A DNA stretch of 64,000 nt from Nannocystis pusilla (GTDB taxonomy: Bacteria; Myxococcota_A; Polyangia; Nannocystales; Nannocystaceae), in assembly GCF_026626665.1 (NCBI RefSeq), contig NZ_JAPNKE010000002.1, positions 42,501 through 106,500 of the forward strand, given 5' to 3'. The notes beneath the pieces are model-generated. The model made no database searches, was not told where the DNA came from, and worked only from the letters and a program-made list of their open reading frames with translations. The position numbers and the translations under genes were made by a program. Shown piece by piece: positions 17,655 to 19,161 of this stretch. Position 1 is the first letter of the stretch. Every line of letters starts with the position of its first letter.

Positions 17655-17978
17655 ATGCACGAGGTCGATCGTTTCAGCGCGCTGCGGAGCGCGGTCCAGC
17701 AGGCGATCCTCGGCCGCGACGGCGTCACTGACCGCGCGACCCGCCGGCGCGCGTACGACGGCGAGGGCGAGCCGGGGGCGATCGCGGCGTACGTGGCGAC
17801 GGTGCAGCGCGACGCGTACCGCGTCGACGACGACATGATGGCGGCGGTGCGCCAGGCGGGGCTGGGCGACGACGCGATCTTCGAGCTCACCGTGGCGACG
17901 GCGGTGGGCGAGGCGACGCGGCAGTTCGACGCGGCGATGGCGGCGCTGGCGACGGCGCTGGCGGAGAGCGAGGGCTGA
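17655..17978 (+). CDS. Partner protein of the AhpD-like gene, function unknown
   Basis: 107 helical residues with a conserved-looking core (AYRVDDDMMAAV followed by LGDDAIFELTVATAVGEA). The TVATAVGEA helix recalls the helical hairpins of carboxymuconolactone decarboxylase-fold proteins, but the redox Cys pair is absent, so this may be a non-catalytic paralog. From general knowledge, short proteins of this kind often sit directly before CMD-family genes. The stop (TGA 17976-17978) is one base from the next ATG, so the two genes are co-translated. Confidence 0.75.
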   Translation: MHEVDRFSALRSAVQQAILGRDGVTDRATRRRAYDGEGEPGAIAAYVATVQRDAYRVDDDMMAAVRQAGLGDDAIFELTVATAVGEATRQFDAAMAALATALAESEG

Positions 17979-17979
17979 C

Positions 17980-18561
17980 ATGCGGATCCCGTCGATCGAG
18001 GCGCCGCGCGGCGTGCGAGAGAAGTTGATGCTGGCGCTGATCCGGGTGCTCAGCGGGCACCGGGCGCCCGATGTCGTCCGCACCCTGCGCTACCGGCCGG
18101 AGATGTTCGGCGCGCCGATGGGCGCGCTGTTCCAGGAGGTGCTGCGCGGGCCGTCCGAGTGGTCGCTCGGCGAGCGCGAGCTGTTCGCCGCCTGGGTGTC
18201 GAAGAAGAACGAGTGCGAGTTCTGAACGCGGGCCCACGGCGCGGTCGCGTCGAAGGTGATGGGCGACGAGACGGTCGCGGCGGCGCTGGCCGACCCCGAC
18301 GGCGCGGCGCTGTCCGAGAAGGTCAAGGCGACGCTGGGCCTGCTGACGAAGGTGACGCGCGCCCGCGAGTCGCTCACCGCGGCCGACGTCGCGCCGGTGC
18401 TGGCCGCCGGGGTGTCGCGCCAGGGGGTGATCGACGCGCTGATGGTGGCGTTCGCGTTCAACGTGATCACCCGCCTGGCCGACGCCTTCGAGTTCGAGGT
18501 GCCGTCGCAGGCGTCGTTCGACGCCTCGGCGAAGATGCTGCTGACGCGCGGCTACAAGTGA
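17980..18561 (+). CDS. AhpD/carboxymuconolactone decarboxylase-family peroxidase-type protein, candidate selenoprotein (in-frame TGA)
   Basis: The frame from ATG 17980 reads to TGA 18223-18225 and continues open in the same frame to TGA 18559-18561. It gives 193 residues if the internal TGA is decoded. The interruption falls at residue 82 in KKNECEF-(TGA)-TRAHGAVASKV, where AhpD/CMD proteins have the redox motif C-x-x-C followed by a conserved His. The TGA replaces the second (resolving/attacking) Cys, giving C-x-x-U. The downstream half is a well-formed CMD helical domain (VSRQGVIDALMVAFAFNVITR, ADAFEFEVPSQ). A SECIS-like hairpin lies at 18244-18272. A ribosome site (GAGG) precedes ATG 17980. 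The role would be thiol/selenol-dependent peroxide reduction. The alternative is a TGC-to-TGA mutation or sequencing error; the other apparent errors in this window are indels, not substitutions. Confidence 0.75.
18244..18272 (+). promoter_or_regulatory. Candidate bacterial SECIS hairpin
   Basis: GTCGCGTCG (18244-18252) pairs with CGACGAGAC (18264-18272), giving nine positions with a single G-A mismatch. The 11-base loop AAGGTGATGGG contains GGT, as bacterial SECIS loops usually carry an exposed G/GU. The loop starts 27 bases after the TGA, inside the 16-37 base range generally given for bacterial SECIS elements. No folding energy was computed. Confidence 0.5.
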
Positions 18562-18621: not shown

Positions 18622-19161
18622 TCAGCGGGCCTGGGCGATGCAGCGCTCGATCAGCTTGCGGCTCATGCCGGTGAAGCGGCACAGGCGGTCGACGCGATCG
18701 TCGGCGTAGGCGAGGTTGATGATCATGAGGTCGAGGTCGAGGATCTTGAGCAGGCTGCGCCCGGCGGCGGTCCGGCGGGCGGGATCGTCGGCGTGCGCCT
18801 CGATCAGCGCGAGGCCCTCGCCGCGGAGGAAGCTGGTGACGGCCTCGACCCACCACGGGCGCACGCCGACGCGCACGTGGGCGAGGCCGATCCGCCAGCG
18901 CTCGGCGAAGTAGCGCTCGCCGTAGTCGCCGGCGAACAGCTCGTTCAGCCAGCGCAGGTGGGTCTGCTTGAGCGCGTCGACGCGGCCGGCGATGAGCGCC
19001 GCCTGCTCGGGGTCGGCGGCGAGCTTGGCGTAGAAGCGATCGGTGAGCTCGGGGCCGTGGGTAGCGAACAGCGGGGCCAGCTCGCGCAGGCGCGCGGCGT
19101 CGTCGGCGTCGAAGCCGATGAAGCGCTGGATGGCGGCGTAGATCTCGGACGTGTCGGTCAT
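18622..19161 (-). CDS. Protoglobin-domain heme protein
   Basis: 179 residues forming a single globin-coupled-sensor-type globin: LRELAPLFATHGPELTDRFY for the early helices, QTHLRWLNELFAG, and the proximal-His region RIGLAHVRVGV. The residues after it (WWVEAV, and AAGRSLLKILDLDLMIINLAY) match the last helices. There is no output domain, so it is a stand-alone protoglobin for O2/NO/CO binding or sensing. Its ATG overlaps the stop of the preceding gene by ATGA, and it is the last gene of a four-gene minus-strand operon with roadblock proteins. Hence a gas signal to a small-GTPase system is plausible, but this is inference. Confidence 0.85.
   Translation of the reverse strand: MTDTSEIYAAIQRFIGFDADDAARLRELAPLFATHGPELTDRFYAKLAADPEQAALIAGRVDALKQTHLRWLNELFAGDYGERYFAERWRIGLAHVRVGVRPWWVEAVTSFLRGEGLALIEAHADDPARRTAAGRSLLKILDLDLMIINLAYADDRVDRLCRFTGMSRKLIERCIAQAR

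Follow-up and report, generated by a model that had tools for sequence, protein, structure and literature searches.

The gene at 17980-18561 of the window, by which we mean the whole 64,000-nucleotide stretch of DNA analyzed here from the soil myxobacterium Nannocystis pusilla, and the small gene immediately upstream of it very probably form a two-gene module, in which a selenocysteine (Sec)-dependent peroxidase or oxidoreductase of the AhpD type is accompanied by a dedicated, inactive pseudo-subunit. The features of this module are the following.

17655..17978, + strand: partner gene for a CMD-like half domain without the active-site helix, 107 aa, assigned from homology and a structure model
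17970..17974, + strand: GAGGG, a plausible ribosome-binding site in the last codons of the partner gene, 5 nt upstream of the selenoprotein ATG (17980), recognized by sequence inspection
17980..18561, + strand: putative AhpD/CMD-family selenoprotein gene, 193 aa through the TGA, with Glu67, Cys79, Sec82, and His86
18223..18225, + strand: TGA codon, predicted to encode selenocysteine, residue 82, at the second position of the CxxC/CxxU motif
18237..18252, + strand: SECIS hairpin core, with a 6-bp stem (18237-18242/18247-18252) and the loop GGTC (18243-18246)

There is a single internal TGA in 17980-18561, the frame is open on either side of it, and both halves belong to one CMD/AhpD protein of 193 aa, as a sequence-only reading of this DNA had claimed. 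The protein passes the PF02627 (CMD/AhpD) profile with 23.8 bits (cut-off 23), and its motif is NECEF-U-TRAH, compared to motifs of the RCVYCAVSH type in solved relatives. Its closest named relatives are from Nannocystis (88-96% protein identity). In the genes of 59 relatives matched at E<=1e-10, exactly one TGA lies within the match in every case, and the TGA of the homologues is kept in independently assembled genomes down to ~30% identity, which argues against a read error or a chance occurrence. All 28 TGA-bearing homologues collected have it at the second CxxC position. The alignment also bore out two further points of the sequence-only reading, namely that the TGA stands at the second Cys of C-x-x-C and that other homologues have Cys codons there: TGC or TGT is found in the distant relatives L081, L083, L085, L087-L090, and L092-L095, and TGT in L073, an apparent orthologue within the clade. 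L073 (G189:C18:70672-71549) is the sole Cys form of the clade, with moderate branch support (86/95). Glu67, Cys79, U/Cys82, and His86 are invariant in a 30-sequence alignment (A4).

Three other explanations of the TGA were considered. A sequencing error that turned TGC or TGT into TGA, or a local point mutation, would fit a genome with an estimated completeness of 80%, in which some errors are likely; nevertheless, the TGA is shared by independently sequenced genomes, among them those of N. exedens DSM 71, N. pusilla DSM 53165, and N. poenicansa, and its presence in relatives rules this explanation out, leaving it a negligible probability. It is very unlikely that the TGA is a true stop, giving a pseudogene or two peptides from the two halves, even if standard annotation would split the gene and an in-frame GTG start is available at 18256 for the second half. 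The clade keeps the TGA precisely at this place in the CxxC motif with both halves conserved, dN/dS is <1 both 5' and 3' of it in every pair compared, and a hairpin under selection and a complete Sec machinery, described below, also oppose a stop; the pseudogene was rejected on the homologue evidence. So was code reassignment, and the chance that a reassigned code or an ordinary suppressor inserts Trp or some other residue at the TGA is practically nil. The only point in its favor is that the frame stays open whatever the TGA encodes, whereas the position aligns with Cys and not Trp, TGA serves as a normal stop at 17976-17978 and 18559-18561, and the local hairpin and the tRNA-Sec fit Sec decoding. 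Judged from sequence, the assignment of TGA 18223-18225 as a selenocysteine codon holds.

The hairpin spans the 12th to the 27th base 3' of the TGA, leaving a spacer of 11 nt, and six pairs close its GGUC loop. In the 28 TGA-bearing genes, 167 of 168 hairpin cells are paired, and the loop is GGUC in 27 genes and AGUU in one. The sequence-only reading had described a hairpin of nine positions with a GGT-containing loop at SECIS distance; the hairpin and its GGT loop stand, but the conserved core comprises 6 bp and a GGTC tetraloop instead of nine positions. Among 27 distinct sequences, a set that includes the Gemmatimonadota sequence L101, 99.4% of the cells are paired, three pairs vary on both sides, and 14 cells show double changes. 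The covariation score of this set is above that of 500/500 shuffles and of all slid versions, a result to be read with the caveat that descent alone can lift related sequences above such shuffles. Codon usage matters therefore as a second line of evidence: the same-codon fraction is 0.97 in residues 87-91 compared to 0.50 elsewhere, which indicates a synonymous freeze under the hairpin. Residues 87 and 91 vary jointly, as Gly-Ser, Thr-Val, Ala-Ala, or Asp-Ser, due to the demands of RNA pairing. In the Cys form L073 (TGT), the hairpin is broken (2/6 pairs and the loop lost).

In the SECIS of E. coli fdhF, the apical loop is AGGUCU, similarly spaced from the codon, and a U is bulged; a bulged U of this type is not seen in the window hairpin. 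The Rfam scan gave no SECIS family match and nothing relevant. A search of the genome for the same SECIS pattern returned 7 places, compared to 3 in a reversed control, which is no clear signal beyond the window gene. Outside the phylum, L101 (Gemmatirosa kalamazoonensis plasmid 2, record 453643-457221) is a TGA gene with the motif CPFUIASH and the same GGTC hairpin, and a separate partner gene was not seen in this record. An Acidobacteriota plasmid match, a truncated Cys form (NRCEFCTRAH), adds little.

The sequence-only reading had named a lack of selB or selC as what would speak against it. In the 12-Mb window genome, selA (413.7 bits), selB (258 bits), and selD (312.5 bits) each score over their cut-offs and lie clustered in a 7-kb region; the genome also encodes a tRNA-Sec, whose anticodon is UCA. 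With the limit set at 60 bits (no score lies between 61 and 51 bits), a tRNA-Sec is present in 26 of the 29 genomes with a TGA form, compared to 2 of the 12 whose listed matches are Cys forms only. It is not clear in three TGA-form genomes, G029, G046 (L026), and G186 (L082), all of which are fragmented assemblies; in the last two, the contigs carrying tRNA-Sec are possibly missing from the assembly. The genome of L073 (G189) keeps a tRNA-Sec (67.6 bits), and L073 may for this reason have exchanged Sec for Cys while the Sec machinery was retained.

Two other genes of the window genome contain in-frame TGA codons. Its selD (L099, G000:C2:5640073-5640924, - strand) carries a TGA at its own active site (GGGUAAK) and a second one near the C-terminal end, after the similarity drops, which looks like an assembly frameshift. 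A second AhpD-like gene (L034, G000:C2:664900-665355, NHCVYUTRAH) scores 137 bits with TIGR01926, over the cut-off, is without a partner, and has a different hairpin, GACCUC...GAGGUC.

The stop codon of the partner gene ends one base 5' of the selenoprotein ATG. A partner is present in all 29 clade members, directly upstream in 25 and as a C-terminal fusion in 4; every one of the 25 split members, the Cys form included, has the upstream homologue, and the fused members (L029, L032, L033, and L080), which come from other myxobacteria, have no upstream copy in the stretches examined. Three of the four fusions fall in one well-supported clade of the tree, and two genomes, G009 (L028 and L032) and G019 (L025 and L033), contain split and fused forms together. 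Of the 14 strong partner matches (E <1e-10) across 284 genomes of the phylum, 13 occur together with the enzyme. The partner-bearing clade is one branch (support 100/98), apart from the partner-less Sec and Cys forms. Partner and enzyme distances are correlated (r 0.68-0.86, with 0/2000 permutations as high), as shared descent alone can produce. A search for the pair gave nothing in two genomes of the genus Nannocystis: G001, a fragmented assembly, and G006, which retains only the second AhpD-like gene (L031). L078 (G148:C4:4190-5520) consists of tandem AhpD-like TGA genes with a partner gene between them. A tblastn search of plasmids with a partner protein gave no match.

In TIGR01926 and in AhpDs of the PDB, sequence similarity to the partner (E 3e-7 to 5e-4) covers the C-terminal third, and the partner model (pLDDT 94.4) shows five helices matching AhpD folds; the catalytic residues are absent. 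From its sequence and model, the partner is half of a CMD protein and catalytically dead. The sequence-only reading was right to suggest that this gene without a Cys pair might belong to the same system, given its conserved position upstream or in fusions, but its identity as an AhpD half-domain and the sestrin-like layout had not been recognized. No widely conserved neighbours were found beyond the pair, and for that reason neither a reductant nor a substrate can be named. Downstream, a convergent ORF (window 18622-19161, - strand) has the look, judged by eye, of a globin-coupled sensor or protoglobin. PADLOC gave no match, and a scan for sigma-70 promoters and terminators found nothing.

We modeled the natural fusion L032 with Cys in place of Sec (pLDDT 93.7, pTM 0.92). 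Compared with solved structures, the model matches human Sestrin2 best over its full length (Z 24.6, 2.7 Å, 262 residues): residues 10-318 of the model superpose on chain 66-479 of Sestrin2, and single AhpDs reach Z <=15.9. Sestrin is a human stress and nutrient sensor, whose GATOR2 binding and leucine sensing are eukaryotic functions, and bacteria are not known to have GATOR2. In the L032 model, an active N-terminal and a dead C-terminal AhpD-like domain are related by a pseudo-twofold as in Sestrin2, and the window carries the corresponding parts as separate genes. The dead domain of the model is short of two helices: the catalytic one, which in the active domain spans residues 80-90 and holds Sec82 and His86, and the one following it.

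Sestrin2 combines an active AhpD-like N-terminal domain with a C-terminal domain whose catalytic helix-turn-helix has turned into a helix-loop (PMC4674687). Sestrins (human Sestrin2, PDB 5t0n, 5dj4, 5cuf) are thus like the fusion in having the active domain first and the dead domain second, and in the lack of the catalytic helix in the C-terminal domain (PMC4674687, PMC11429811). On the other hand, Sestrin2 is only 11% identical to the natural fusion and has Leu128 at the second Cys position, where the window clade has Sec. In sestrins, an electronegative DDYDY-type hinge takes the place of the catalytic helix of the C-terminal domain; the hinge of the window partner (AYDGEGEPG) is acidic, but it is not conserved across the family. 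The sestrin profile PF04636 (PA26) matches neither the fused L032, L029, and L033, nor the split relative L028, nor, at E 0.001, the window protein. It is over its cut-off in 0 of the 284 genomes of the phylum, where the weak sub-cut-off matches are mostly other AhpD-type genes and none lies in the clade. A profile of the fusions (A6) searched against PDB sequences did not find sestrin. The structure model supports the description of the fusion as built like a sestrin; that it is a sestrin or the ancestor of sestrins is not supported, because the PA26 and fusion-profile searches link neither way. The idea that the myxobacterial Sec-AhpD with a dead half-domain, and the fusion, form a prokaryotic lineage sister or ancestral to the sestrins of eukaryotes, with a two-gene selenoenzyme first and fusion later, seems quite improbable to us.

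The module can be pictured as follows. The UGA at 18223-18225 would be decoded as Sec with the help of the downstream hairpin, SelB, and tRNA-Sec, giving an enzyme that retains the AhpD catalytic set Glu67, Cys79, Sec82, and His86. Its constant companion, as neighbour or C-terminal fusion, is the CMD half-domain without catalytic helix encoded upstream. From the fused relative, at 34-35% identity, we infer that the Sec-peroxidase and the pseudo-subunit may assemble into a sestrin-like heterodimer, laid out like an AhpD dimer or the two halves of a sestrin. It is unlikely that the partner instead acts only as a chaperone-like neighbour or as a small, transiently bound regulator. The separate ORFs of the split members, the missing catalytic residues, and the weak Foldseek E-values of the partner alone (best 0.03) would agree with such a role, but the four natural fusions, with three in a single clade, and the confident, sestrin-like domain packing in the fusion model argue for the stable pseudo-subunit. 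This pseudo-subunit might complete the fold, regulate or present the enzyme, or do both.

In the presumed reaction, Sec82, activated by a His86/Glu67 relay, would reduce an organic hydroperoxide or a similar substrate, Cys79 would resolve the selenenic acid into a selenenylsulfide, and a cellular dithiol would reduce the latter again. Both the peroxidase activity and the dithiol reductant are proposals for the window enzyme. Another activity of the CMD fold, such as thiol-disulfide exchange, dehalogenation, or decarboxylation, is a less probable alternative that deserves some weight, since the debrominase Bmp8, a CMD-fold protein, also matches the model and the TIGR01926 relatives are mostly uncharacterized. 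Nevertheless, the full Glu/Cys/Sec/His set of AhpD is invariant and the closest relatives with solved structures bear the name peroxidase-related or AhpD, which favors a peroxidase.

With this module, myxobacteria gain a clear selenoprotein clade that is easily mis-annotated, with a small SECIS whose RNA pairing forces the covariation of encoded residues 87 and 91. The sestrin layout, an active AhpD domain plus a domain without catalytic helix, appears to be built in bacteria both as two genes and as a fused gene. A 2024 review that searched for prokaryotic analogues stated that the deletion of a helix in the C-terminal domain and the acidic hinge in its place set sestrins apart from their prokaryotic analogues, in which the deletion was not found (PMC11429811). 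Since the bacterial clade shows a deletion of this kind, the origin of sestrins and the role of the dead domain become directly testable in a simple system.

Among known systems, AhpD of M. tuberculosis has Glu118/Cys130/Cys133/His137, which correspond in spacing to Glu67/Cys79/Sec82/His86 of the window enzyme; it differs by a Cys where the window has Sec, and the sequence match is weak. NF041238 (AhpD_rel_CFYUT) also comprises a CxxU CMD domain and gives 43 bits with the window protein, but its cut-off of 175 is not reached, and the model has 357 positions with the CMD domain at the C-terminal end. The prokaryotic two-domain AhpDs that the 2024 review names as sestrin analogues (YciW and the Corynebacterium and Comamonas hydroperoxidases) share the two AhpD-like domains, one of them without Cys in the Corynebacterium and Comamonas proteins, whereas the review reports an N-terminal dead domain for them and states that prokaryotic analogues retain the helix missing from sestrins (PMC11429811); in the window clade the dead domain is C-terminal or separate, and the helix is gone. 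Neither the half-domain partner nor the fusion turned up in the open-access literature searched. As the sequence-only reading had noted, AhpD-like proteins with Sec in place of Cys were already reported: from 2005 onward, such CxxU selenoproteins appear in the Sargasso Sea and GOS surveys and in later lists (PMC1088965, PMC1794560, PMC2398784, PMC13188914). The AhpD-like/TIGR01926 selenoproteins (PMC1088965, PMC2398784, PMC13188914) share the CMD fold, CxxU, and a bacterial SECIS with the window protein, and one such family is listed under TIGR01926. The window protein differs in scoring 66.6 bits against the TIGR01926 cut-off of 81.8, which the fused relatives L032 and L029 pass, and in belonging to a separate clade marked by the half-domain partner. 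The selenoprotein part is already known in kind as an AhpD-like CxxU protein, and the half-domain partner and its fusion are the newer part.
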